A stretch of 64,000 nucleotides of DNA, from assembly GCF_000719135.1 (NCBI RefSeq), contig NZ_JOEK01000010.1:62001-126000 (forward strand), read 5' to 3'. Below, in pieces: positions 5,124-62,635 of the stretch. The notes under the pieces are model-generated. The model saw nothing but the letters and a program-made list of their open reading frames with translations. It was not told where the DNA came from and did not search any database. The stretch is from Streptomyces avicenniae. Its GTDB lineage: Bacteria > Actinomycetota > Actinomycetes > Streptomycetales > Streptomycetaceae. How positions within the stretch are numbered: position 1 is the first letter of the stretch; every line of letters begins with the position of its first letter. The position numbers and the translations under genes were made by a program.

Positions 5124-7350
<2,227 letters not shown>

Positions 7351-14317: not shown

Positions 14318-15322
14318 TCACTCCACGGGGTAGCGCAGGCCGATCCGGTCGCGGACGGCGTCCAGGGTCCGCATCACGGCCAGCGAGCCGTCGAGCGGCA
14401 CCAGCGGCGACTCCGTCTCGCCCGCCCGCAGGCAGCGTGCCACCTCGGCCGCCTCGTGGACGAACGAGTCGGCCGGGCCCGTCCCGGTGAACTCCTCCGG
14501 GTCGCGGCCCTCCCGGTGCAGCGTGAAATGCCGGGGGTGGAAGAACCCGCGGGAGAAGGTGATGCGCCCCGCGGACCCCGTCACGACGGCCGTCCGCGCA
14601 GTGTCCGCGATCAGCGAGCACGTCAGCGCGGCCATGGGCCCCGACGGGTAGCCGAGCAGCACCCCCGTGTGGGTGTCCACGCCGCCGCGCAGCCGCGCCC
14701 AGGCGGTGATCTCAGAGGGCTCGCCGAGCAGGAGCTGCGCGAACGCGACCGGGTACACGCCGAGGTCGAGCAGCGCCCCGCCGCCGAGCGACGGATCGAG
14801 CAGCCGGTGCGACGGGTCGGGCGGCAGGTCCACACCGAAGTCCGCGTGGACCGCGCGTACCTCGCCGATGGCGCCCTCGCGCACCAGCTCGGTCATCCGC
14901 CGGACGGCCGGGTTGCAGTACATCCACATCGCTTCCATCAGGAAGACGCCGCGGTCCCGCGCCACGGTGACCAGCGACTCGGCCTGCGCCGCGTCGAGGG
15001 TGAACGGCTTCTCGCACAGCACCGGCCTGCCCGCGTCGAGGCACAGCCGCGCCGCGTCGTGGTGGGCGCTGTGCGGCGTGGCCACGTACGCCACGTCCAC
15101 GGCCGGGTCGGCGGCCAGTTCCGCCCAGCTGCCGTACGCCGCCGGAATGTCGTGCTCGGCGGCGAAGGCGGCGGCCTTCTCCCTGGTCCGCGAGGCCACG
15201 GCCACCACCTCGGCGTCCGGTTCGTCCGCCAGATCACGCGCGAACTTCGCCGCGATCCCTCCCGTCGCGATGACGCCCCATCGCACCGGACGCCCCGTCA
15301 GATCCCCGGTTCCGCCGTTCAC
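14318..15322 (-). CDS. Gfo/Idh/MocA-family NAD(P)-dependent oxidoreductase
   Basis: The protein has 334 residues. The N-terminal Rossmann domain carries WGVIATGGIAAKFARDL. The family motif CEKPF is present as VLCEKPFTLDAAQAE. The C-terminal alpha/beta domain follows, with MEAMWMYCNPAVRR and the GGGALLDLGVYPV block. Such enzymes oxidise or reduce sugars, inositols and trans-dihydrodiols. No substrate can be inferred. The start is GTG 15322 with GAAGGAGAG upstream. It converges with argH (20-bp gap) and is divergent from the DUF4132 operon, with a 105-bp shared promoter region. Confidence 0.88.
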   Translation of the reverse strand: MNGGTGDLTGRPVRWGVIATGGIAAKFARDLADEPDAEVVAVASRTREKAAAFAAEHDIPAAYGSWAELAADPAVDVAYVATPHSAHHDAARLCLDAGRPVLCEKPFTLDAAQAESLVTVARDRGVFLMEAMWMYCNPAVRRMTELVREGAIGEVRAVHADFGVDLPPDPSHRLLDPSLGGGALLDLGVYPVAFAQLLLGEPSEITAWARLRGGVDTHTGVLLGYPSGPMAALTCSLIADTARTAVVTGSAGRITFSRGFFHPRHFTLHREGRDPEEFTGTGPADSFVHEAAEVARCLRAGETESPLVPLDGSLAVMRTLDAVRDRIGLRYPVE

Positions 15323-15364: not shown

Positions 15365-15387
15365 TTGTCAGTGGGTGCTCCTACAGT
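15365..15387 (+). promoter_or_regulatory. RecA-NDp / PafBC-type DNA-damage promoter of the MoxR-VWA operon
   Basis: TTGTCAGTG (15365-15373), eight bases, then TACAGT (15382-15387) match TTGTCRGTG-N8-TANNNT, the RecA-independent DNA-damage promoter of mycobacteria that is activated by PafBC. The -10 element is 40 bp upstream of the start codon. The same arrangement stands before ruvC at 62005-62027. Confidence 0.75.
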
Positions 15388-15427
15388 CTCGATCATCGTA
15401 AGGAAACGCGATCACCAGGAGTCACTG

Positions 15428-16282
15428 ATGGGGTGGATCAGCGCGGGCGACTACGACGTCGCCCTCGATGACGGGGGCAGGGTCATCTGCCGCAACAAGG
15501 CGGGACGCCGCTTGAAGTCCGTGCCGGGCAAGCTCGCCGACGACCCGGCCGTCGTCCAGCTCCGCCAGCTGACCGAGTGGCTCGCGCGCCACGAGCGCGA
15601 GTGCGTCGCGACCGTGGAGCGCTGGATGATCCGCTCCCTGCCGGTCCCCACCGACGTGCTGGTCCGCGTCTGGCCCGACCCGGCCTGGCAGGCGGCGCTG
15701 CGCGACCTGGTCGTCACCGACCCGTCGGGGAGCGTCGCCGGGTTCCTGCGCGGCGCCGACGCGGAGCGCGGCGTCGGCCTCGTGGACCTCGACGGCGACA
15801 CGGTGCGCACCACGGCGTCCGTCCTCCACATCCCGCACCCCGTCCTCCTCGACGACCTGGAGGAGCTGCGGGAGTTCGCCACCGAGCTGGACCTGCGCCA
15901 GGGCATCGGTCAGCTCCACCGTGAGGTGTGGCACCGCGAGGAGACCAGCCCGGACGCCACGGCCGTCACCACCTACGCGGGCGGCCGGTACGCACAGCTG
16001 CGGTTCCTCACCGGCCGCGCCGTCTCGCTCGGCTACCGGGTGCGCGGCGGCCAGGCCGTCTGCGCCGTCCACGAGGACGGCCGCACCCTGGAGGCCCGCG
16101 TCTGGCTGGGCGACTTCGACGGCTGGTCCGAGACCGAGACCGGCGCGCTGACCTGGAACACCACGGACGGCACCCGCGTACGCCCCGCCGAGACCGGGCC
16201 GGTCGCCTGGTCGGAAGGCATGCGGATGGCCGCCGCCCTGTACGCCGGCCGGGACACGGAGACCACGGAGGACGCACGATGA
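15428..16282 (+). CDS. DUF4132 domain protein (first gene of MoxR-VWA operon)
   Basis: The protein has 284 residues. The N-terminus (WISAGDYDVALDDGGRVICR, then GRRLKSVPGKL) and the core (GFLRGADAERGVGLVDLDGD, IPHPVLLDDLEELREFATEL, GIGQLHREVW) are the DUF4132 pattern. In E. coli this domain forms the C-terminal part of MolR/YehI. Here it is a stand-alone protein. No catalytic motif is evident and I know no biochemical function. ATG 15428 has AGGAG 7 nt upstream. Its stop overlaps the next gene (ATGA). It sits behind a predicted DNA-damage promoter. Confidence 0.85.
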   Translation: MGWISAGDYDVALDDGGRVICRNKAGRRLKSVPGKLADDPAVVQLRQLTEWLARHERECVATVERWMIRSLPVPTDVLVRVWPDPAWQAALRDLVVTDPSGSVAGFLRGADAERGVGLVDLDGDTVRTTASVLHIPHPVLLDDLEELREFATELDLRQGIGQLHREVWHREETSPDATAVTTYAGGRYAQLRFLTGRAVSLGYRVRGGQAVCAVHEDGRTLEARVWLGDFDGWSETETGALTWNTTDGTRVRPAETGPVAWSEGMRMAAALYAGRDTETTEDAR

Positions 16283-19200
16283 GCACCACCCCTTCCCTCG
16301 ACGCCGGAGCGATCCTCCCCCCGGACACGCCGGACGCCACGGACGGCGCCGCGGGCGGCACGGGCAACGCGGACGCCCTCACCGCCCGCACCTACCGTCA
16401 CCCCGCGCTGGAGGAGCGCGCCGTGGTCCGCCTCGTCGCGGAGACCCTCGGCGAGGCCGAGGACCTGGCGCTCGGCTACCTCGGGCTCGCCCGCGACCCC
16501 GACACCCCCCTCGTCGGCCGGGTCAGGCGCGAGACGCTCGGCTTCCCCGCCTGGGCCCTCGTCAACGACCCGGCCAACGGCCACCACGCCCTCGCCCTCG
16601 TCCAGGACATCGAGCGTCTGTCCCGCATGGCCGCCGCCCGCGCCGGGGCCGCCAAGGACGCCTTCGAGGCGCTGGGCGACCAACTCGGCAGGTCCGCGCC
16701 GCACTTCCTGCCGACGTTCTACGAACAGGCCGCGCGCGTCTTCCTCGGCCACGACAACACCCGCTACGCCGCGACGTTCTTCGGCAAGGCGCGCGCCGCC
16801 GAGCGCATGCACGGCCTGGAGGTGGACGAGGAGCGGCACCGCGCCGTCTTCCTGGAGTTCGCCTACGCGGGCGCCCTCACCGTCAGCGCGCTCAAGGAGC
16901 ACGTGCGGGACCTCGTGCAGCGCCTCGACCCCACCGAGGCGTGGGAGCAGTTCCGCCGCCTCACCGTCGAGCGCTGCGCCGCCGGGCTGCCGCCCTACTC
17001 CTCGCTGCCGGGGGACGTCCGCAAGCTGCTGCGCGCGACGGGCCTCGACGTCGCGGCGGAGGAACGCGCCCTGCTCGGCGAACTGCTCGCGTCCCCCGCC
17101 ATCGACTGGGCCCCGCGCACCTTCTGGACCGGCTACCACGACCACCTCGCCGCCCTCGCGGCCGAACAGCCGGAGATCCGCGCCCGGTTCCTCACCATCA
17201 CGCCGTCCGGCCTGGCCTCGGGCGAGGAACTGGGCGACGACGTCTGGCTCGCCCTCCTCGCCGCCACCGGCGCCGACGCCCTGCTCACCGGCGACGCCCC
17301 GGCCTCCGGCACCGCCGCGGCCGACGACCCCGCCGACAGCCCGGCGGACTGGCTCGGCCGCTGGGCCAAGCACCTCAGCTCCGGGTGGCGCTCCCCGCGC
17401 CGCTCCGCGCGCACCTACGCCCTCGTCCGCCGCATGGCGCCCCGGCTCCGCGCCGACGGCCGCCGCGTCGTCGTGTGCAACGGCCGCCGATGGGGCGCCG
17501 GTGTGGACCTCGAACTCCTCGACGTCTGCCTCACGGAGGGCATACCGGTCGCCGACCCGCCGCAGGACCTGAACCTGTCGCTCGACGGATGGTTCGACGC
17601 CCCGGCCGACGAACGGCGCGACCTCACCGCCGTCGTCGCCGACAGCCGATTCGTGTCCCTGCTGCGGGAGGCGGTCGGTCAGACGGGCCGCGACCACCGC
17701 AGCGATCGGCAGAAGATCGTGGCCGCGCACCCCGTGCTCCGTGAGCTCCTGCGGGACTGGCTCGGCGCCGCGGCGGAGACCTTCCTCGCGGCCCGCGGGC
17801 TGCCGTCCGCCCGCAAGGCCATCGACACCCTGCTGCCGTTCGCGCCGGTGGCCGCCGACGTCGCGCCCGACGTCACCGCCGCGCTGGCCGCCCACGACCT
17901 CGCCCCCCTCGTCACCGCCACGCTGCGGACCGGCATCGTGGACGAACTGGGCTGGCCCGCCCTGGAAGAGGCCCTGCGCCTCTTCCCCGAGGCCGACTTC
18001 GGCAGGGGAGCCAAGAGCCTGGTCGTCTGCGAGGCGTGGCCCGCCCTCGTGGTCGGCAACGTCCTCAAGGCCGTCGTGGTCGGCCCCGACCGCATCCTGT
18101 TGGAGCACGACGTCCGCATCCCTGACCAGCTGAGCTGGGAACAGCCGTCCTTCCACTGGACCGACGGCGAACTGCTCGTCACCTGGTGGCACGACGGCGC
18201 CCAGCGCGCCTACTGGTCGGCGCGCCCCACCGAGATCTTCGAACTGACCGCCGGGAACGCACGGAACAGCGGCTCGGACGTCTCCCTGCCCCTCCCGGAC
18301 GGCGGGCGCACCACCGGCGGCCGTCCGTTCCGCGCGGGCGACACCGCGATGGGGGCGCAGCGCCGGGTCGCCGGTGACGGCACGGGCTTCTGGCGGCTGG
18401 AGCACCACGACGGCGCACCCGCCACCTGGCACGAGTTCGACCCGGCCACCGGCGAAGGCGGCCGCGCGTCCCTGCCCGCGTTCTTCGCCCAGGGCATCGC
18501 CGAAGGCGGCAGCCTCCACCCCGACCTCTGCTCACTGATGCCGTTGGCGCCGGGGTACGAGCACACGCCGCTCGGCACGGACGGCCGCCTCCTCGGCGCC
18601 TGGGTACGCAGGGACGAGGACGCCCCGACCCTGACCGCAGGGAGCGTTGACGGCCGCACCGCCACCGTCGGCGGCGCGCCCACCGGCCGCTCCCAGCACC
18701 CCCGCGTCCTGCCCGTCGGCCGCCTGGGCCTGCCGGGCGACGCGTCCCCCGTGCTCCTCGCGGGAGCGACCGCCGGTCTGGCGCCCGACGGCGCCGACCT
18801 CTCGCGCGACATCACGGCCACATTCGAACCGGCCAAGAAGGGCGGCCAGTTCGCCGCCGGGACGCCGCTGGTGCCCCCGCTGACCTTCTGGCACGCCCTG
18901 CTGCCCAGGGACGAGGCCGGTTCCGGCGTCCTGCGCGCCATGACGGACGAGACGGCCCGGCGGCTGGTGTCGGCCGTCTCCGCCGCGGGCGACGAGCAGG
19001 ACCGTCTGCTGCGCGAAGCCGCCGAGGCCGGGCGTGAACGCCCCGCCGAGGAGAGCGCCGCCGCACGCGCCGTCGCGCTGGACTCCGCCGTCACCTCCGT
19101 GCTCGCCGGGGTGAGCGACCCCGCGCTGCGCAAGGGCCTCGCGGGGATCGCCGCCTTCGCCGAACGGCTGGACGCCTCGGTGAAGCGGCTCGTCAGCCCG

Positions 19201-21258
19201 GCGCCCGACGGCCCCGGCACCAGGGTCGCGTCGATGTTCGAGGACCACGAGCCGCCGCACGGCACCAACGCGACGCTCCACGCCGCCCTCGCCGGGCTGT
19301 CCACACCGGGCGGGTACTGGACCAGTGGCTCCTGGTCCGTCATCCAGCAGATCCTGGCCACCTCGCACATCCTGGCGGGCAAGCCGACCACCGGGAAGCC
19401 GTTGCCCGCGCGCCTGCTCGCCGAGACGCTGCCCGGCGGCTGGACCACCGACGCCGCCACGGCACCGGCCGGGAGCCACGACTGGCCCGGGACGCTCGCC
19501 CACCTCCCCGCGCTCGCCTACCGCGCCACCACCGCCACGCTCCCGGACGAGGAGCGCGAAGCCCTCCTGCTGCTGTTGACCGCGTTCGCGGACGGCCCGC
19601 TCAGCGGCGACAGCCCGCTCCGCGTCGTCGAGCTGACCACCCCAGGCACCACCCACACACGCGGCGGCCAGGTCCTGCGCCACGGCGAGCGCACCGTCGT
19701 CGTCCTCGGCACGCGCACCGTGAACCGGGCACAGAACAGGACGACCTGGTTCGCGCTCGACCACGACCCCGCCGCCGCCTTCGGCGCCGTGGCCCACTTC
19801 ACGGTCGGCGCGGAGCAGATCCTGCCCGCCAGGCCGTCCGGGGAGTGGCTCGGCGAGATCGTGCGGCTGATCCGGCGCAACGGCCCCGCGCCGTGGGACC
19901 CCGAGGCCGCGACGCGGCTCGCCGGGGCCACCGGCCTCGGCCCGGCCCAGGCGGCGCTGCTCCTCGCCGCCCTGCCCGCCGAGACCCCGGCGCCCCTGCT
20001 CGCGGTCCTCGGCACCAAGGCGGGCGTCACCGGCGTGGCGGCGCAGCTCCTCCAGGCGCTCCCCGCCGAGGCACCCGGGGAGGTCGTGGCCGCCCTGCTG
20101 CCCGAACGGGCCGAGGACCTGTGGCGGACCGGCGCGGACACGGACGCCGCGGCCCGCGTCTGGCGCACCCGCCTCGGCGACCGGCACCTCGTGCCCGAGG
20201 ACGTCGCGCTGGAGATGCGGCTCAACGCCACGGCCGCGGCCGTCCTCAACCCGACCCTCACCCGGTGGCTCAGCCGCACCACCCGTCAGACGCTGAACAC
20301 GCACAGCCGTCCCACGCCCGACGACCCCTCGGCGCTCCCCGCGTACGGCATCGTGCCCGTCGCCGTCGGCTCGCTCGCGGCACTCGCCTACGCCCTGCCC
20401 GACACCCACCCCGTACGGGCCGCCCTGCCCGGCGCCCTCGACGCGCTGCGCAACCGGCTCGCGGACCCCGGGCTCGTCATGGACATCGACATCGAGTGGA
20501 CCGAGAAGGGCGGTCCCACGGCGAAGCAGCTCCGCGAGATCCACGGCCTTCCCGAGGACGGCGGCGCGGGCACCGACGGGATGGTGCGCATCGGCGACGC
20601 CTTCGTCGCCTTCCCCTGGTACGGCTCCACGGAGGCGACCTGGCTGCGCCCGGCCGGAGTGAAGGGCCCCGACGACCCCGCGCTCGGGCTGATCGAGGGC
20701 ATCGTCGGCCCGCGCTGCCGCAGCCATCTCATCGCCCTGCGGGCGCTGCTGGGCGACGACCTGTCGCGCGCCGTGCGCGCGGGCACGGACGCCGCCGGGG
20801 AGGGGTACGCCCAGGACCCCGCCCGCAGCGTGCCCGGCCTCGTCGCCGAGGTCGCCGCCGCGCACGGACTCGGCGACGACGCCGCCGTCCTCTACCTGCA
20901 ACTGCTCGCCCTGCCCGACCCCACGGACCGCAACCGTGCCCGCTGGACGGGCTGGCGCCCCGCGCGCGCCAAGCGCGCCGCCGCCGAACTGGCCGAGACG
21001 CCGCTCGTCGTGACGGCGCAGCGCTCCCGCGCCGGACGCCGCCTCTTCCTCCCCGGCGGCTGGGCCGACCTCAAGGCCCCCGCCCTGCCGGTGGAGACGT
21101 GGAAGGGCGGTCTCTACCCCCTGCCCGCGACGGCGCGCGCCGTCCCGCACATCCCCGTCGCCGAGCTGTTCCACCGCGCCTGGCAGCGCGTGGGCGACGG
21201 CGACGCCCCCGCCTACGAAGAACTCGTCACCCGCGCCACCAGGAAGGCCCGCCGATGA
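16279..21258 (+). CDS. 1659-residue protein of unknown function in the MoxR-VWA operon
   Basis: This is the largest gene of the window. Residues 1 to about 600 are mostly helical and Ala/Leu/Glu-rich, with repeated Trp-containing segments (TFWTGYHDHLAALA, DWLGRWAKHLSSGWRS). Residues from about 600 to 870 look beta-rich and Trp/Gly-rich (WTDGELLVTWWHDGAQRAYW, GFWRLEHHDGAPATWHEF) and could be propeller-like repeats. The C-terminal half returns to helical, with AEQILPARPSGEWLGEIVRL and a WTEKGGPTAKQLREIHGL segment. I recognise no enzymatic motif, membrane segment or nucleotide-binding loop. Both ends overlap neighbours by 4 bp, so it is translated with the DUF4132 protein and the MoxR ATPase. 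It may be a scaffold or the partner recognised by the ATPase, but that is inference. Confidence 0.8.
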   Translation: MSTTPSLDAGAILPPDTPDATDGAAGGTGNADALTARTYRHPALEERAVVRLVAETLGEAEDLALGYLGLARDPDTPLVGRVRRETLGFPAWALVNDPANGHHALALVQDIERLSRMAAARAGAAKDAFEALGDQLGRSAPHFLPTFYEQAARVFLGHDNTRYAATFFGKARAAERMHGLEVDEERHRAVFLEFAYAGALTVSALKEHVRDLVQRLDPTEAWEQFRRLTVERCAAGLPPYSSLPGDVRKLLRATGLDVAAEERALLGELLASPAIDWAPRTFWTGYHDHLAALAAEQPEIRARFLTITPSGLASGEELGDDVWLALLAATGADALLTGDAPASGTAAADDPADSPADWLGRWAKHLSSGWRSPRRSARTYALVRRMAPRLRADGRRVVVCNGRRWGAGVDLELLDVCLTEGIPVADPPQDLNLSLDGWFDAPADERRDLTAVVADSRFVSLLREAVGQTGRDHRSDRQKIVAAHPVLRELLRDWLGAAAETFLAARGLPSARKAIDTLLPFAPVAADVAPDVTAALAAHDLAPLVTATLRTGIVDELGWPALEEALRLFPEADFGRGAKSLVVCEAWPALVVGNVLKAVVVGPDRILLEHDVRIPDQLSWEQPSFHWTDGELLVTWWHDGAQRAYWSARPTEIFELTAGNARNSGSDVSLPLPDGGRTTGGRPFRAGDTAMGAQRRVAGDGTGFWRLEHHDGAPATWHEFDPATGEGGRASLPAFFAQGIAEGGSLHPDLCSLMPLAPGYEHTPLGTDGRLLGAWVRRDEDAPTLTAGSVDGRTATVGGAPTGRSQHPRVLPVGRLGLPGDASPVLLAGATAGLAPDGADLSRDITATFEPAKKGGQFAAGTPLVPPLTFWHALLPRDEAGSGVLRAMTDETARRLVSAVSAAGDEQDRLLREAAEAGRERPAEESAAARAVALDSAVTSVLAGVSDPALRKGLAGIAAFAERLDASVKRLVSPAPDGPGTRVASMFEDHEPPHGTNATLHAALAGLSTPGGYWTSGSWSVIQQILATSHILAGKPTTGKPLPARLLAETLPGGWTTDAATAPAGSHDWPGTLAHLPALAYRATTATLPDEEREALLLLLTAFADGPLSGDSPLRVVELTTPGTTHTRGGQVLRHGERTVVVLGTRTVNRAQNRTTWFALDHDPAAAFGAVAHFTVGAEQILPARPSGEWLGEIVRLIRRNGPAPWDPEAATRLAGATGLGPAQAALLLAALPAETPAPLLAVLGTKAGVTGVAAQLLQALPAEAPGEVVAALLPERAEDLWRTGADTDAAARVWRTRLGDRHLVPEDVALEMRLNATAAAVLNPTLTRWLSRTTRQTLNTHSRPTPDDPSALPAYGIVPVAVGSLAALAYALPDTHPVRAALPGALDALRNRLADPGLVMDIDIEWTEKGGPTAKQLREIHGLPEDGGAGTDGMVRIGDAFVAFPWYGSTEATWLRPAGVKGPDDPALGLIEGIVGPRCRSHLIALRALLGDDLSRAVRAGTDAAGEGYAQDPARSVPGLVAEVAAAHGLGDDAAVLYLQLLALPDPTDRNRARWTGWRPARAKRAAAELAETPLVVTAQRSRAGRRLFLPGGWADLKAPALPVETWKGGLYPLPATARAVPHIPVAELFHRAWQRVGDGDAPAYEELVTRATRKARR

Positions 21259-22433
21259 CCACCGCCCCTCACCCGGCCGCGACCGCCGCGGCCCGTCAGA
21301 TCACCCCGCCAGAGGAGCGCTACGCCGACGAACTCGCCTTCCTCGCCGCGTACGACACGGGCCCCCGCCCGCCCGGCTGGCGGCTCACGCCCCGCGCCGT
21401 CGTCACGTTCGTGATGGGCAGCGACGGCCGTACGCTCTCCCTGCCCGACCCGGCGGACGCCCCCGCGGGCACGGCGGCGCGCGCCGAGATCAGCGCCAAG
21501 TTCGTCGGGGACCGCGCCCTGGTCGAACGCTGCGTCATCACCCTGGCGGGCGAACGGGGCCTGCTGCTCGTCGGCGAGCCCGGCACCGCGAAGTCGATGC
21601 TGTCCGAACTGCTCGCCGCCGCCGTCTGCGGCACCAGCGGGCTCACCGTCCAGGGCACCGCGGGCACCACCGAGGACCAGCTCAAGTACGGCTGGAACTA
21701 CGCCCTGCTGCTCGCCCAGGGCCCCACGCGCGAAGCGCTCGTGCCGTCCCCCGTCCTCACGGCGATGACGACGGGCGCCGTCGCCCGCGTCGAGGAGATC
21801 ACCCGCTGCCTGCCCGAGGTGCAGGACGCCCTGGTGTCGCTGCTGTCCGAACGGCGCGTCGCCGTCCCCGAGCTGGCGGGGAGCGACCACGCCCAGCTCC
21901 ACGCCGCGGGCGGCTTCACCCTGATCGCCACGGCCAACCTCCGCGACAAGGGCGTCTCCGAGATGTCCGCCGCCCTCAAGCGCCGCTTCAACTTCGAGAC
22001 CATCGGCCCGATCGCCGACCCCGACGCCGAGACGCGGCTCGTACGCCGCCAGTCCCGCGCGGCCGTGGCGCGGTCAGGCGCCCCGTACCATGTGGACGAC
22101 GCCGTCCTCGAAGCGCTGGTCACGGCCTTCCGCGACCTGCGCGAGGGCCGCTCCGCCGAGGGCTGGGAGGTCGAGCGGCCCAGCACCGTCATGAGCACGG
22201 CCGAGGCGGTGTCCGTCGCCGGTTCCCTGGCGCTGGCCGCCGCCTACTTCCCCTCGGAACGCGACGTCCTCGGCCTGCTCCCCGGGCACCTGCTCGGCGT
22301 CGTCCGCAAGGACGAGCCCGCCGACGCCGCCCGCCTGCGCGGCTACTGGGACGCCGTCGTGCGGCGCCGCGCCGAACAGGGCGCCGCTACCTGGCGCACC
22401 CTGTGGGACCTGCGCCCCGTGCTGGAGGACTGA
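21255..22433 (+). CDS. MoxR-type AAA+ ATPase (YehL-like)
   Basis: The protein has 392 residues. Walker A is GEPGTAKS (about residues 107-114). Walker B is the variant VARVEEIT with E180-E181 in place of the usual Asp-Glu. Then LPEVQDALVSLLSERR and sensor-1 LIATAN follow, and ALKRRFNFE contains the arginine-finger region. The E-E Walker B with LPEVQDAL is what I know from YehL-type MoxR ATPases. MoxR proteins act as ATP-driven chaperones paired with VWA proteins. The next gene carries the VWA domain. The ATG overlaps the upstream stop (ATGA), and the next start is 6 bp past this stop. Confidence 0.9.
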   Translation: MTTAPHPAATAAARQITPPEERYADELAFLAAYDTGPRPPGWRLTPRAVVTFVMGSDGRTLSLPDPADAPAGTAARAEISAKFVGDRALVERCVITLAGERGLLLVGEPGTAKSMLSELLAAAVCGTSGLTVQGTAGTTEDQLKYGWNYALLLAQGPTREALVPSPVLTAMTTGAVARVEEITRCLPEVQDALVSLLSERRVAVPELAGSDHAQLHAAGGFTLIATANLRDKGVSEMSAALKRRFNFETIGPIADPDAETRLVRRQSRAAVARSGAPYHVDDAVLEALVTAFRDLREGRSAEGWEVERPSTVMSTAEAVSVAGSLALAAAYFPSERDVLGLLPGHLLGVVRKDEPADAARLRGYWDAVVRRRAEQGAATWRTLWDLRPVLED

Positions 22434-22439
22434 CCGGCC

Positions 22440-25400
22440 ATGACCGCCCCACCACAGCAGCTGCCCGACGGCGTGACGGTGCCGGAGGACGCCCTGCGCG
22501 ACCTCACCGATCCGGACGGCCCCTACCTGATCGGCGTCCGGCACCACGCGCCGTCGCTCGCCGCGGCCGTGCCGCACCTGCTGGACGCCGCCGCGCCGGA
22601 CGTCCTGCTCGTCGAACTGCCCGCCGAGCTCCAGGACCGGCTCGGCTGGCTCGCCCACGACGACACGCGCGCGCCCGTCGCCCTGGCGGCGGTGCCGCAG
22701 GGCGAGGCGAGCCCCGACCCGGCGTTCTACCCGTTCGCCGACTTCTCCCCCGAGCTGGCCGCCCTGCGCTGGGCGGCCCGCCGGGGGGTCCCCGCCGTCG
22801 CCGCCGACCTGCCGCTCGCCGACCCGGCCTGGCGGCGCCCACCCGGCGGCCACCCGCCCGAGTCGCCCACGGACGCGACGGCCCGCCCCGGGCTGCGCCA
22901 CGCCCTGCGCGCCCGCCTCACCGGCCGCGCGGGCGACGACCTGTGGGACCGGCTGGTCGAGGTCGGCGCCCCCGGCTCCCCGCCGGAGAGCCTGCGCCGC
23001 GCCGCCCTCCTCACCGGCTGGGCCCTGCGCCACGACGCCGCGCACGGCCACGGCGTCGAGGCGCTCGACCTGCGGCGCGAGCAGTGGATGCGCCAGCGCA
23101 TCGCCGAGGCGACGGCGAAGGGGCAGCGCGCGGCGGCGGTCGTCGGCGCCTTCCACACGCCCGCCCTGACGCCGCGCGCGATGAAGGGGCACGACGCCCC
23201 GGAGCCGGTCCCGGCCGCGCCGTGGACCGTCTCCCTCATCCCGTACACCTACGCCCTCCTCGACGCGCGCTCCGGCTATCCGGCGGGCATCCGCGACCCG
23301 GAGTGGCAGCAGCAGGTCCTGGAGGCGTCGGGCGACCCCGCCGCCCTCCACGACGCGCTGACCCGCACCGCCGTACGGATCTGCGCCCGCCTGCGTGCCC
23401 AGGACCACCCGTCGGGCCCGGCCGACGCCGTGGAGATCACCCGCCTGGCCACCGACCTGGCCGCCCTGCGCGGCCTGCCCGCCCCCGGACGCGGCGAGCT
23501 GATCGAGGCCGTGCAGACCGCCCTCGCGCAGGGCGAGCCGCTGGGACGCGGGCGCGCCGTCTCCCGCGCGCTGGAGGACGTCCTCATCGGCACCCGCACG
23601 GGCAGCCCCGCCCCTGGCGCCCCGCGCGGCGGCCTGGCCCCCGCCGTCGAGGCCGAGCTGACCGAACTCGGCCTGCCCGCCCCGCCCGACACGCCGTCCG
23701 AGGCGCGCGACCTGCGCCTCGACCCCGCCCGCACACCGCTGGACCGCAGGCGCGACGTCCTGCTGCGCCGCCTGGCCGTCTGCGGCGTCCCCTACGCCGA
23801 GGAGCAGTCCGTCACGGGCCCCGGCGGCACCGAGGCCCTGACCACCCGCTGGCAGATCCGCTGGACCCCGGCCACCGCCGCGATGCTCGCCGCGGCGACC
23901 GTCCGTGGCGTCACCGCGGCCCAGGCGGCGGAGGGCGCGCTGCGGGAACGCCATCGCGCCGAACGGGACGCGGGCGGCCCCACGGCGTCCCAGGTCCTCA
24001 CCGGTCTCGGCCAGGCGGCCGGGTGCGACCTCGGCACGCTCACCGCAGAACGGCTCGGCGAGCTGCGCGCCGTCCTCCCCACCTCGGGCACGCTGCCCGA
24101 ACTCCTCGCCGCCCTCGCCCTCCTCGACCGCCTGACCGCGGCGGGCCGCGTGCCCGGCGACGCCACCGGCCCGCACGGCACCGCCGAGCTGCTCACCACG
24201 GCGGCCGTCCGCCAGATCGAGGGCCTGACCGGCTCCACCGATCCTGCCGACGCCCACGCCCTGGTCGAACTCGCCCATCGCGCCGACGTGTTCGGCGGCC
24301 TGCGGCTCACCACCGAGCTGGCCGCCCTCGCCGCCGACGGCTCCCCGCTGATGCGCGGGGCCGCCGGAGCCGTACGCGTCCTCCTCGGTCACGGCACACC
24401 GGAGGCGCTGGGCGACCTGGTCGCCTCCTGGGTGGACGCGGCGACCACCCCGGCCGCGCGCACCGCGCTCACCGGCCGTCTCACCGGCCTGCTCACCGCC
24501 GCGGGGCCGCTCCTGGAAGCCGCGCCCGCCGCGCTCGCGCCGCTGCTCGACCGGATCACCGACCTGCCCGACCGGCAGTTCCTCGACCGGCTCCCCGCCC
24601 TGCGCGGCGGCTTCGACACCCTGAGCCCCGCCGCCCGCGACCGCCTGCTCGCCGTGGTCGAGGACCGGCTGGGCGACCGGATCGCGCCGCTCGCCGCCAC
24701 CGACGCGGCCACGGCGGAGCGGTGGACCCGCGCCGACCTCACGGCACGGGACGCCCTCGCCGCCCTCGGCCTGCTGCCCGCCCCCGCCGACCCCGTCCCG
24801 CGCGACGCCTCCCCGCACGAAGCCTTCCCGAAGGACACGTCCCCGCGCGCCGCCGAGACGCCGCCCGCCGCCGAGTCCGCGCTGCCGCCCGCCGACCGCT
24901 GGCGCCTCGTCCTCGGCCGCCGCTCCGACCAGCTCTCGGCCGGAGCCGCACCCCTGGCCACCGCGCTCGACGAGCTGTACGGCGCCGGTCGCGGCGAGGG
25001 CGCGCGCGGCGACCTCGGTCACGGCCGGGGCGGCGGCCGGGAGGCCCCGTTCCCCGGCATCCGGGCGTGGTCGGACGAGCTGGCCGCCCTGTTCGGCCCC
25101 GGCATCCGCGAGGAGGTCCTCGCCGCCGCGGCCGAGGCGGGACGGCCCGACGCGGCGCTCGCCCTCGACCCCGAGCACGTGCGCCCGTCCGTCGAACTCC
25201 TCCACACGGTGCTCCAGCACGCCGGAGGGCTGCCCGAGGCGCGGCTCGCCGCCCTGCGGCCCCTGGTCCGCCGCCTCGTGGACGAGCTGACCCGCGAACT
25301 GTCCACCCGCCTGCGCCCCGCCCTGACCGGCACCACGCTGCCCCGACCCAGCCGCAGGCCGGGCGGCGCCCTCGACCTCGCCGCCACGCTCCGGGCCAAC

Positions 25401-25982
25401 CTGCCCACCGCACGCCGCGAATCCGACGGCACGGTCCGCATCGTCCCCGAGCACCCCGTGTTCCGCACCCGCGCCAAACGCTCCGCCGACTGGCGGCTGA
25501 TCATCCTCACCGACGTCTCGGGCTCCATGGAGCCCTCCACCATCTGGTCGGCGCTCACCGCCTCCGTCCTCGCCGGGGTCCCCGCGCTCAGCACGCACTT
25601 CCTCGCCTTCTCGACCGAGGTCGTCGATCTCACGGGCCACGTGCACGACCCCCTCTCGCTCCTCCTCGAAGTGCGGGTCGGTGGCGGCACGCACATCGCC
25701 GCCGCGCTCCGCCACGCCCGCACGCTCGTCACCGCCCCCTCCCGCACGCTCACCGTCGTCATCAGCGACTTCGAGGAGGGCTACCCCCTCGGTCCCCTCC
25801 TCGCCGAGGTCCGCGCCCTCGCCGACACCGGCGGGCACCTCCTCGGCGTCGCCGGGCTCGACGACGCGGGCAGACCCCGCTACTCCACGGCCGTCGCCGG
25901 GCAACTGGTCTCCGCCGGTATGCCCGTCGCCGCCCTCAGCCCTCTCGAACTCGCCCGCTGGGTAGGGGAGAAGATCCGATGA
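22440..25982 (+). CDS. DUF5682-VWA fusion protein (YehM-YehP type)
   Basis: The protein has 1180 residues. The N-terminal 700-800 residues are of the DUF5682 type, starting with the family motif YLIGVRHHAPSLAAAV and VLLVELPAELQDRL. The last 170 residues are a von Willebrand A domain with an intact MIDAS: DVSGS from D1025, the threonine region GGGTHIAAALRHA, and VVISDFEEGYPLGPL. In E. coli these two parts are separate genes (yehM, yehP). Here they are one polypeptide. VWA domains bind a metal and a partner protein, and MoxR ATPases act on such partners. A low-complexity linker rich in Pro/Ala/Glu (near SPHEAFPKDTSPRAAE) separates the halves. The stop overlaps the next ATG. Confidence 0.88.
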   Translation: MTAPPQQLPDGVTVPEDALRDLTDPDGPYLIGVRHHAPSLAAAVPHLLDAAAPDVLLVELPAELQDRLGWLAHDDTRAPVALAAVPQGEASPDPAFYPFADFSPELAALRWAARRGVPAVAADLPLADPAWRRPPGGHPPESPTDATARPGLRHALRARLTGRAGDDLWDRLVEVGAPGSPPESLRRAALLTGWALRHDAAHGHGVEALDLRREQWMRQRIAEATAKGQRAAAVVGAFHTPALTPRAMKGHDAPEPVPAAPWTVSLIPYTYALLDARSGYPAGIRDPEWQQQVLEASGDPAALHDALTRTAVRICARLRAQDHPSGPADAVEITRLATDLAALRGLPAPGRGELIEAVQTALAQGEPLGRGRAVSRALEDVLIGTRTGSPAPGAPRGGLAPAVEAELTELGLPAPPDTPSEARDLRLDPARTPLDRRRDVLLRRLAVCGVPYAEEQSVTGPGGTEALTTRWQIRWTPATAAMLAAATVRGVTAAQAAEGALRERHRAERDAGGPTASQVLTGLGQAAGCDLGTLTAERLGELRAVLPTSGTLPELLAALALLDRLTAAGRVPGDATGPHGTAELLTTAAVRQIEGLTGSTDPADAHALVELAHRADVFGGLRLTTELAALAADGSPLMRGAAGAVRVLLGHGTPEALGDLVASWVDAATTPAARTALTGRLTGLLTAAGPLLEAAPAALAPLLDRITDLPDRQFLDRLPALRGGFDTLSPAARDRLLAVVEDRLGDRIAPLAATDAATAERWTRADLTARDALAALGLLPAPADPVPRDASPHEAFPKDTSPRAAETPPAAESALPPADRWRLVLGRRSDQLSAGAAPLATALDELYGAGRGEGARGDLGHGRGGGREAPFPGIRAWSDELAALFGPGIREEVLAAAAEAGRPDAALALDPEHVRPSVELLHTVLQHAGGLPEARLAALRPLVRRLVDELTRELSTRLRPALTGTTLPRPSRRPGGALDLAATLRANLPTARRESDGTVRIVPEHPVFRTRAKRSADWRLIILTDVSGSMEPSTIWSALTASVLAGVPALSTHFLAFSTEVVDLTGHVHDPLSLLLEVRVGGGTHIAAALRHARTLVTAPSRTLTVVISDFEEGYPLGPLLAEVRALADTGGHLLGVAGLDDAGRPRYSTAVAGQLVSAGMPVAALSPLELARWVGEKIR

Positions 25983-27793
25983 CCGGCACTCCGCCGCTGC
26001 CCCCCGTCGCGCCCGCCGTGACCGCCGCCCTCGTCGGCGCGCTCAGCCCGCGCCTGCGCAAACGCCTCGACGCCGCCGCGGCCAAGCTCACCGCCCGCCC
26101 CCTCACGCGCGACGGCGACACGGTCCGCGTCCAGGTGGACGACGAGACCGCGCTCGCCCTCCACGCCCCCACGGGGTCGGTGCTCTCGGCCGACGACATC
26201 CGCTGCGACTGCCTCCTCGCGCCCGCCTGCGTGCACCGGGCCGCCATCGCCACGGCCGCCCCCGTCGCGGACGACGCCCCGCCGCAGGCCCCGGGGGAGT
26301 CCGCCGCCGCACAGCCCGCCACCGGCCCCGGCACCGCCGAGCCTCCCGGCGGGACGGTCACACCCGAGCAACTTGCCGCCGCGCAGGCCCTGTGGAGCGC
26401 CGCCGCCTCCGCGCTCGAAGCCGGGATCGACGGCGCGGGCGCCGTCCTCCAGGCCGAACTCCTCGGCGCCGCCCACACGGCACGCCTCGCCGCGCTTCCC
26501 CGCCCCGCCACAGCGGCCATCACCGTCGTCGGGCGCCTGCGCGCCGCCCGCGCCGCCGACCCCGCCCACCGTCTCACCGACCTGACCACGGCCCTCGGCG
26601 AACTCCTCCACACGACCCACGGCCTCGCACGCCCCGAGGCCCCCGACGCCGCCGCACTCCGCGGCACCGCCCGCAGGACGTACAACCCCGGCGGATCCCT
26701 GCGCCTCTACGGCCTGTTCACCGAGCCGGTACGCGCCGACAGCGGCCACGCGGGGGCCGTCACCTGGACGGCGGACGCGGACGGCCGCCTCTACAACGTC
26801 CCCGACGTCATGCCGGGCGGCGCGGAGCGCGCGGCCACCGCCGTCACCCGCACGATCCGGCTCGGCGACACCGCCCTCACCCACCGGGAGCTGTCCCGCG
26901 CCGGACTCTCCCTCTCCGGCGCGACCGTCACCCCGGACGGACGCCTCGGCGCCGGAGCGGCCGTCCGCGCCGTCCGCGCGACCGGGGCCGCCTGGGACGA
27001 GGAGCCGCTCGCCCAGCTGTGGTCGGCGCCCCCCGCCGCCCAGGCCGCCCGCGCCCTCGACGCGCTGGCGCTCCCCGAGCCGCAGCGCCCGCCGGGCGCC
27101 GACCTGCTCTTCCTCGACGTCACGGTCGTCGGCGCCCTGCGCGAGACCGGCCGGGAGGTACTGCTCGCCGACTGCGGCGGCCTCGGCGTACGGCTCGTCG
27201 CGGCCGACGACCACCCCGCCCTCGCCCACCGCGACAACCTGCGGCTGCTGGCCATGGTCCCCGGCCTCGCCCTGCGCGTCGTCGGACGCCTCGTCCCTGC
27301 GGCGCACCCCCGGCTGCGCCTCCTGGCGGTCGGCCGCCCCCCGGGCCACGAGACCGTCCTGCGCACGCCCCCCGGCTCGGGCCACACGGACCTGGGCCAC
27401 GACCGCCTGCAACGCGGCGACCTGCCGCCGGGGCGCCCCGTACCGGCGGGAACAGTCGTCCACGAGCCCGCCGAGGCGCCCCTCCACCTCCTGCGCCGCA
27501 GAACGGACCAGGCCGCCGCGGCGGGCCGCCGCACCCTCGCCCTCCCCGGCCGCGACGGCGGCGACGGCCGCCGCCTGCGCACGGCGGGCCTGCGCACCGG
27601 CGCCGCCCTCCTCGACGAACTGCACCGCGCCGCCGCCGACCGGGGCCGGGACGTCTTCGGGCGCCTCCTGCCCGCCGACGCCGACCGGTTCGCCCGCGCC
27701 TGGCTGGCCGTGGCGCTCTACACCGACAGCGCCGCCAGGACGCTGTGCGCCGCCGCGTGGCACGGGCCAGGCGGGCAGGAGGGCGCCGACTGA
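25979..27793 (+). CDS. SWIM zinc-finger protein (YehQ-like), last gene of MoxR-VWA operon
   Basis: The protein has 604 residues. A SWIM-type zinc site C-x-C-x5-C-x-H is formed by C76, C78, C84 and H86 (CDCLLAPACVH), after a short strand pair (TVRVQVDDETALALH). A Pro/Ala-rich linker follows, and then a long domain with ARRTYNPGGSLRLYGLFTEP and several beta-rich blocks (ADLLFLDVTVVG, EVLLADCGGLGVRLV). SWIM domains bind DNA or protein. YehQ of E. coli has the same design and neighbourhood. The gene is coupled to the VWA gene (ATGA) and closes the operon. No terminator hairpin is obvious in the 51 bp before the next gene. Confidence 0.85.
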   Translation: MTGTPPLPPVAPAVTAALVGALSPRLRKRLDAAAAKLTARPLTRDGDTVRVQVDDETALALHAPTGSVLSADDIRCDCLLAPACVHRAAIATAAPVADDAPPQAPGESAAAQPATGPGTAEPPGGTVTPEQLAAAQALWSAAASALEAGIDGAGAVLQAELLGAAHTARLAALPRPATAAITVVGRLRAARAADPAHRLTDLTTALGELLHTTHGLARPEAPDAAALRGTARRTYNPGGSLRLYGLFTEPVRADSGHAGAVTWTADADGRLYNVPDVMPGGAERAATAVTRTIRLGDTALTHRELSRAGLSLSGATVTPDGRLGAGAAVRAVRATGAAWDEEPLAQLWSAPPAAQAARALDALALPEPQRPPGADLLFLDVTVVGALRETGREVLLADCGGLGVRLVAADDHPALAHRDNLRLLAMVPGLALRVVGRLVPAAHPRLRLLAVGRPPGHETVLRTPPGSGHTDLGHDRLQRGDLPPGRPVPAGTVVHEPAEAPLHLLRRRTDQAAAAGRRTLALPGRDGGDGRRLRTAGLRTGAALLDELHRAAADRGRDVFGRLLPADADRFARAWLAVALYTDSAARTLCAAAWHGPGGQEGAD

Positions 27794-62004: not shown

Positions 62005-62027
62005 TTGTCGGTGCCGGCCGGTAGCCT
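62005..62027 (+). promoter_or_regulatory. RecA-NDp / PafBC-type DNA-damage promoter of ruvCAB
   Basis: TTGTCGGTG (62005-62013), eight bases, then TAGCCT (62022-62027) match TTGTCRGTG-N8-TANNNT. The -10 is 53 bp before the ruvC start. This class of promoter is established for mycobacterial DNA-repair genes. Confidence 0.75.
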
Positions 62028-62080: not shown

Positions 62081-62635
62081 GTGCGCGTACTGGGAGTTGA
62101 CCCCGGACTGACCCGCTGCGGCGTGGGGGTCGTGGACGGCTCGGCGGGCCGCAGGCTCGCCATGGTCGCCGTGGGCGTCGTCCGCACCCCCGCGGATCTC
62201 GACGCCCCGCGCCGACTCGTCCTCGTCGAGGCGGGCATCGAGGAGTGGCTCGACACGCACCGGCCAGAAGCGGTCGCCGTGGAACGGGTGTTCAGCCAGC
62301 ACAACGTCCGCACCGTCATGGGCACCGCCCAGGCCAGCGCCGTCGCCATGCTGTGCGCGGCCCGGCGCGGCCTGCCCGTCGCGCTCCACACCCCGAGTGA
62401 GGTCAAGGCCGCCGTCACCGGCTCGGGCCGCGCCGACAAGGCCCAGGTCGGCGCGATGGTCACCCGGCTGCTGCGGCTCGACGCACCCCCCAAGCCCGCC
62501 GACGCCGCCGACGCCCTGGCCCTCGCCATCTGCCACCTGTGGCGGGCACCGGCCGTCTCCCGCCTCCAGCAGGCACACGCCGCCGCGCGCCTCGGCGCCG
62601 CGGCCCCCGCTCCGAAGGGCATCCTCCCGTCATGA
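62081..62635 (+). CDS. ruvC: Holliday-junction resolvase RuvC
   Basis: The protein has 184 residues with an RNase-H-like fold. [18 protein letters not shown] provides the first catalytic aspartate (D7), [18 protein letters not shown] the glutamate, and the C-terminal [14 protein letters not shown] the last acidic residues. The enzyme cleaves Holliday junctions moved by RuvAB. It starts at GTG 62081 with GAGGGAGG upstream. Its stop overlaps ruvA (ATGA). Transcription is probably from the damage promoter at 62005-62027. Confidence 0.97.

Follow-up and report, generated by a model that had tools for sequence, protein, structure and literature searches.

The window, a 64,000-nucleotide stretch of a Streptomyces avicenniae contig, contains five tightly spaced forward-strand genes (15428-27793; Table 1) whose products include DUF4132, MoxR and VWA proteins. 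Neighbouring genes overlap by 4 bp at three junctions, and the remaining junction leaves 6 bp between them, a packing that agrees with the five-gene operon proposed in the first-pass annotation. Gene 2 returned no Pfam, NCBIfam or PADLOC match over its 1659 residues and is present at 34-52% identity in all 40 of the ortholog regions scored. Gene 5 has no Pfam match, its SWIM label coming from a CxCx5CxH motif located by script, and the predicted structure of gene 1 (mean pLDDT 66.5, pTM 0.39) was too poor for a fold search. All five genes occur together in 34/40 ortholog regions; two others (L261 and L272) are pieces of ~5 kb, too short to show a whole operon, three (L248, L270 and L271) show genes 1 and 2 only, and L273 lacks gene 3.

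Upstream of this operon, positions 15365-15387 read TTGTCAGTG GGTGCTCC TACAGT, two elements separated by an 8-bp spacer, 40 bp upstream of the ATG at 15428 and oriented toward the DUF4132 gene. The sequence matches the RecA-NDp consensus TTGTCRGTG-N8-TANNNT, as had been claimed for it, and exactly two strict matches occur in the window, the only other copy (62005-62027) indeed lying ahead of ruvC. Scanning 100 dinucleotide shuffles of the window gave no match to the strict pattern. The predicted transcription start, near 15394, fits a CA dinucleotide (15394-15395) that is kept in ~90% of 59 non-redundant upstream regions. The intergenic gap to the divergent ORF at 14318-15322 is 105 bp, if the GTG at 15322 is the start of that ORF.

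Table 1. Features of the window discussed in the text.
Feature	Position	Strand	Evidence
Divergent Gfo/Idh-type oxidoreductase, outside the operon	14318..15322	-	NCBIfam hits below cut-offs
PafBC-type upstream element, TTGTCAGTG	15365..15373	+	Sequence; conserved across 59-sequence upstream alignment
-10 element TACAGT, 8 bp past the upstream element	15382..15387	+	Sequence; upstream alignment
Predicted transcription start, conserved CA	15394..15395	+	Upstream alignment; inference
Ribosome-binding site AGGAG, 6 bp ahead of ATG	15417..15421	+	Sequence; conserved in upstream alignment
Gene 1, short separate DUF4132 protein, 284 aa	15428..16282	+	PF13569, 97.6 bits
Gene 2, 1659 aa, first 4 bp shared with gene 1	16279..21258	+	tblastn match in 40/40 ortholog regions
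Gene 3, MoxR-type AAA+ ATPase (AAA_5)	21255..22433	+	Family match; 47% identity to E. coli YehL
Gene 4, DUF5682 (YehM-like) fused to VWA_CoxE (YehP-like)	22440..25982	+	PF18934, 680 bits; PF05762, 197 bits; BLASTP to YehM/YehP
Gene 5, 604 aa, SWIM-like CxCx5CxH (residues 76-86); corresponds to YehQ by position	25979..27793	+	Motif script
Second motif copy, ahead of ruvC	62005..62027	+	Strict pattern scan
ruvC, internal reference for a damage promoter	62081..62635	+	TIGR00228 above cut-off

We examined and rejected LexA as the regulator of the window operon, since the promoter contains no actinobacterial LexA box (the best candidate has three mismatches). LexA-like sites with at most two mismatches near DUF4132 genes numbered 17 in 40 regions, with 0.56 expected per region, and are not above background.

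Conservation of the motif within the family

The first-pass annotation had expected the motif to be conserved upstream of orthologous operons, and this held within the family (80/80 near orthologs and 56/61 loci of a family sample) and mostly did not hold for DUF4132 genes of other actinobacterial families (6/28). Near orthologs were scored with a matrix of 22 training sites that excluded the DUF4132 sites and still included the site of a WGR gene. Every one of the 80 scored at least 10, compared with 0 of 2157 equal-length control windows from the same loci, and the reverse strand of the same upstream regions reached this score in 0/80; the strict motif lay within 200 bp in 47/80. These are the best 80 of 287 confirmed orthologs, nearly all from Streptomyces with Yinghuangia and Actinacidiphila in addition, so the set is biased to close relatives.

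The family sample, like the WGR loci and the other families, was scored with a matrix of 21 sites from which the WGR site had been removed. Scores of at least 10 were obtained at 25/30 loci of the first set (own locus included) and 31/31 further loci, and the strict motif was present at 14/30 and 14/31, respectively. Upstream stretches of 200 bp were taken for the first 30 loci and of 220 bp for the further 31, which come from 30 genomes and were scored without control windows; nine of the 40 ortholog regions (L274-L282) repeat genomes of the first 30 loci, and the 31 were counted as new. The five loci scoring below 10 are L037, L041, L042, L046 and L049. Partial, weak or broken family matches were left unscored, for example those of G034 (contig edge) and G030 (a stop), as was a third DUF4132 gene of G033 (L212).

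An alignment of the 59 non-redundant upstream regions, built without the motif, returned TTGTCAGTG-N8-TAnAGT as the main conserved block 5' of the predicted start. Behind this block come the CA at the predicted start, further conserved bases directly after it and the ribosome site. Just 3' of the -10 element, the alignment also contains a conserved CACTTGATCA, from which the window has diverged (15388-15403 compared with orthologs L091-L170).

A PafBC-type regulon in the genome

Across the 6.48-Mb genome, 24 strict sites were found, compared with 0 for a reversed-pattern control and ~0.04 expected from an order-1 estimate based on window composition. Six of these precede recA, uvrB, ung, xseA, recD2 and ruvC, all confirmed by curated models. 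Further sites lie one each ahead of a WGR-propeller gene, an HNH gene and the window DUF4132 gene, and another precedes a 114-aa ORF with a second DUF4132 gene (DUF4132-DUF7737) behind it, such that strict sites stand before both DUF4132 genes (one of them as second ORF) and before the genome's only WGR gene. The remaining 14/24 sites have downstream ORFs of unclear kind or no clear gene (e.g. L002 and L022), one of them showing a HEAT-repeat match below cut-off. The contig that carries the window also encodes pafB and pafC, followed by tatA and tatC as read from the sequence, and the HTH_PafC model matches PafC. The repair-gene targets together with pafBC point to a PafBC-type regulon in this genome.

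At L065 (G000:C14:105000-123000), the WGR-propeller gene is divergent from uvrB, and 3.5 kb separates their strict motifs. At L010, the motif (locus positions 1501-1523) lies inside a long inverted repeat (GTCAGTGCCGTCAC / GTGACGGCACTGAC) ahead of an uncharacterised 214-aa ORF; the repeat might serve a second regulator as its operator.

That the window motif is a chance match, or was kept through shared ancestry alone, is extremely improbable. The orthologs examined do belong to one family and hence are not independent, but 24 sites were seen where 0.04 were expected, the motif columns stand out against unconserved sequence farther upstream, and the motif is also present at the WGR gene and at other DUF4132 genes. 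Among WGR loci, the strict motif was present in 18/30 and scores of at least 10 in 28/30, compared with 2/600 control windows. DUF4132 genes of the genus outside the gene-1 type carried the motif near the gene start in 11 of 12 scored, and TTGTCAGTG-N8-TANNNT was found within 30 bp of ATG in 61/61 genus genomes, with one control hit in total.

The RecA-NDp consensus is described as the target of PafBC in mycobacteria (PMC8223512, PMC6789036), where PafBC activated by single-stranded DNA is reported to adapt the housekeeping polymerase (PMC11804915). A different WYL regulator could activate the promoter, and we consider this improbable. There are 14 WYL matches in the genome, among which sequence cannot assign specificity, and, in an initial search described in 2022, the M. 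smegmatis PafBC motif did not seem to be conserved in S. venezuelae (PMC9380542). Against such a regulator stand the fit of the motif to the consensus bound by the mycobacterial protein and the presence of pafBC beside tatA-tatC. The data above indicate a RecA-NDp regulon that would be general in the genus, a comparison with PMC9380542 that is made at the genus level and not for S. venezuelae itself. A broad PafBC-type regulon in Streptomyces is thereby indicated, a point that the 2022 paper left open, and RecA-NDp use in Streptomyces has already been published (PMC5087735, citing work of 2002 on S. rimosus recA).

We therefore favor PafBC over another WYL regulator: PafBC is likely the activator of this putative promoter, and induction of the promoter by DNA damage can be predicted with still greater assurance. 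As the best explanation of the locus, it is highly likely that 15365-15387 is a RecA-NDp (PafBC-dependent) promoter driving a damage-response operon. The PafBC-type promoter claimed in the first-pass annotation is supported by its sharing with recA, uvrB, ruvC, ung, xseA and recD2 and by its conservation ahead of the family orthologs. With the RecA-NDp promoters of Streptomyces and M. tuberculosis recA and of S. coelicolor SCO6735, it has in common the two elements, their spacing, the company of repair genes and a pafBC pair; it differs from known promoters of this class in that its target is an uncharacterised MoxR-VWA operon and in being known here from sequence alone. SCO6735 is reported to rise 5-fold after UV, and its mutant to survive UV and MMS normally (PMC5087735), which implies that genes of a damage regulon can be without a repair phenotype.

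Other actinobacterial families and further genomes

Outside the family of the window, 6/28 DUF4132 genes scored at least 10, compared with recA in 17/18 of the same genomes. The 28 were scored from 36 DUF4132 places, those left out being second copies in G371:C53 and G194, two places of G200, and G173:C28, G243:C39, G302 and G223. Given the difference between DUF4132 and recA, the association of motif and operon is therefore either a trait of the window's family or one in which the motif has drifted beyond the matrix elsewhere. Proteomics of an M. smegmatis pafBC deletion are reported to place MoxR1, MoxR2 and a von Willebrand protein 1.6- to 1.7-fold lower (PMC5656591), proteins that are possible relatives of the window gene products.

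In G281, G263 and G297 (family f19, genus g53), strict sites numbered 119, 63 and 26, respectively, and many of the listed ones are identical (TTGTCGGTGCCCGCCCGTAGGGT). From their sequences, these look like copies of an interspersed repeat with a putative damage-type promoter in it.

Relatives in Escherichia coli and Deinococcus

A chromosomal cluster of E. coli K-12 contains, in order, yehF (WGR), yehI (DUF4132), yehL, yehM, yehP and yehQ, with yehH and yehK in between. BLASTP aligned gene 3 with YehL (47% identity, E 4e-101) and gene 4 with both YehP (E 1e-55) and YehM (E 4e-30). No match was found between gene 5 and YehQ, which both have a CxCxnCxH motif, and that between gene 1 and YehI was not significant (E 0.58), gene 1 being assigned to DUF4132 by PF13569. 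The two clusters are thus alike in having MoxR, DUF5682, VWA, a DUF4132 gene and a gene with a SWIM-like motif. In contrast to the yeh cluster, the WGR gene of the window genome lies elsewhere, DUF4132 is short and separate, VWA is fused to DUF5682, a 1659-aa protein is added, and gene 5 has no recognisable YehQ homology.

The predicted mode of control also differs, with a PafBC-type promoter at the window operon and a LexA-type box ahead of E. coli yehF. This box (CTGGATAAAATTACAG) ends 9 bp ahead of yehF; one-mismatch LexA sites in the E. coli stretch numbered 3 with 4.1 expected, so that by count the box is not rarer than chance. We take molR to be the yehF-yehI region of E. coli, with yehF part of molR. 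Two papers count E. coli molR among the genes regulated by LexA (PMC11039860, PMC4576408). In Proteus mirabilis, 16 bp separate a DUF4132 ORF from an upstream LexA-like site with one mismatch; as a damage box this site is only suggestive, with 5 such sites in the stretch versus 3.6 expected. An exact alphaproteobacterial LexA box was absent from the Rhizobium locus, its single occurrence in the Agrobacterium locus is not at the operon, and neither of two one-mismatch LexA-like sites in Iodobacter (4.6 expected) lies at the operon.

Deinococcus offers a second comparison. A plasmid operon of D. taeanensis is arranged as SWIM-DUF5691-MoxR-hypothetical-DUF5682-VWA, and a radiation-response-like palindrome (6026-6042) lies 19 bp before its first gene, the only one in 19 kb (0.04 expected). 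As in the window, MoxR, DUF5682, VWA and SWIM genes stand behind a damage-type box. For D. deserti, a five-gene MoxR-VWA operon with a radiation motif upstream has been described and a chaperone role proposed (PMC2669436), and in D. radiodurans the DRA0166 (DUF4132) and DR2173 (WGR) proteins are reported to rise after mitomycin C in an IrrE-dependent manner (PMC8533742). The window genome thus shares the DUF4132 and WGR families with D. radiodurans (DRA0165-0166, DR2173), the protein rise after damage being that of D. radiodurans as given in the paper. The D. radiodurans genes and those of D. deserti (Deide_18730-18690) are likened by description, not by sequence. The Deinococcus operons differ from that of the window in their control by DdrO/IrrE, in gene order and, in D. 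taeanensis, in the presence of DUF5691.

These precedents from D. radiodurans, D. deserti and E. coli molR (PMC8533742, PMC2669436, PMC11039860) mean that the first-pass annotation overstated the newness of a damage-response link for this family. The literature searched yielded no published record of PafBC control of a window-type operon; damage control of its relatives is already published.

Proposed role of the operon

By extension from the mycobacterial work, single-stranded DNA that accumulates would be bound by PafBC, which would adapt the housekeeping RNA polymerase to the window promoter. Transcription of the five tightly packed genes would then begin near 15394. The MoxR ATPase and its VWA-DUF5682 partner might remodel a protein or protein-DNA substrate, which the DUF4132, gene-2 and SWIM-like subunits may choose. 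Cells with damaged DNA probably benefit from the operon products; remodelling of protein-DNA complexes as their specific role is a tentative proposal, somewhat short of an even chance.

An old name invites another assignment. Because the E. coli relative was called MolR and MoxR-VWA pairs often mature metalloenzymes, the operon might serve cofactor or molybdate metabolism, with damage control secondary. This is quite unlikely, as the operon is predicted to be co-regulated with repair genes and as D. radiodurans moeA and moeB are reported unchanged on derepression of the DUF4132 and WGR genes (PMC8533742).

Damage control of the promoter would also fit a conflict module, acting in phage defence or cell fate and using DNA damage as its alarm in the manner of MoxR-vWA ternary systems, a possibility that we regard as rather unlikely. 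The window operon has the MoxR and VWA pair in common with these systems, and predicted conflict systems are described as having such pairs at their regulatory core (PMC8195603). The distribution is patchy, with a match in 63/121 family genomes, partial matches included, and some relatives occur in plasmid records, one of them near restriction-modification genes. In contrast to ternary conflict systems, no effector, VMAP or iSTAND was detected in the window operon, and there was no relevant PADLOC match: for the five proteins, no PADLOC family was found save one marginal, irrelevant hit (E 0.01). A Pfam search turned up neither an effector domain nor parts of the STAND or VMAP kind, gene 2 being without any match, and bpMoxR stays below its cut-off (21.6 versus 27 bits). 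Neither Pfam nor PADLOC reveals a third component (VMAP, iSTAND or TERNS3), with genes 2 and 5 lacking a family match. Moreover, the five genes stay together in 34/40 regions, and E. coli K-12 carries their counterpart on its chromosome.

As to a role in the damage response itself, a single pathway is suggested for the operon, the WGR gene and the second DUF4132 gene by the damage switch that they share. WGR domains are known as binders of DNA breaks, and MoxR-VWA proteins as chaperone pairs. Control of this gene set by three unrelated damage regulators seems likely, because a PafBC-type promoter is found here, a LexA-type box at yehF/molR and a radiation-response-like box in Deinococcus. It is possible, although we put it below even odds, that the WGR/DUF4132 and MoxR-VWA-DUF5682-SWIM genes form one ancient damage-response machine, brought independently under LexA in E. 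coli, DdrO in Deinococcus and PafBC in Streptomyces, which would remodel protein-DNA complexes where DNA is damaged. Should the same gene set indeed be the target of three unrelated damage regulators, bacterial damage responses would share a machine that is so far undescribed. An uncharacterised AAA+ gene cluster, kin to that of E. coli K-12, gains a concrete and testable role from this proposal.

A further arrangement of these genes was seen in Iodobacter fluviatilis (L287), where a mobilizable plasmid carries two DUF4132 genes and a yeh-type cluster near type I restriction-modification genes.
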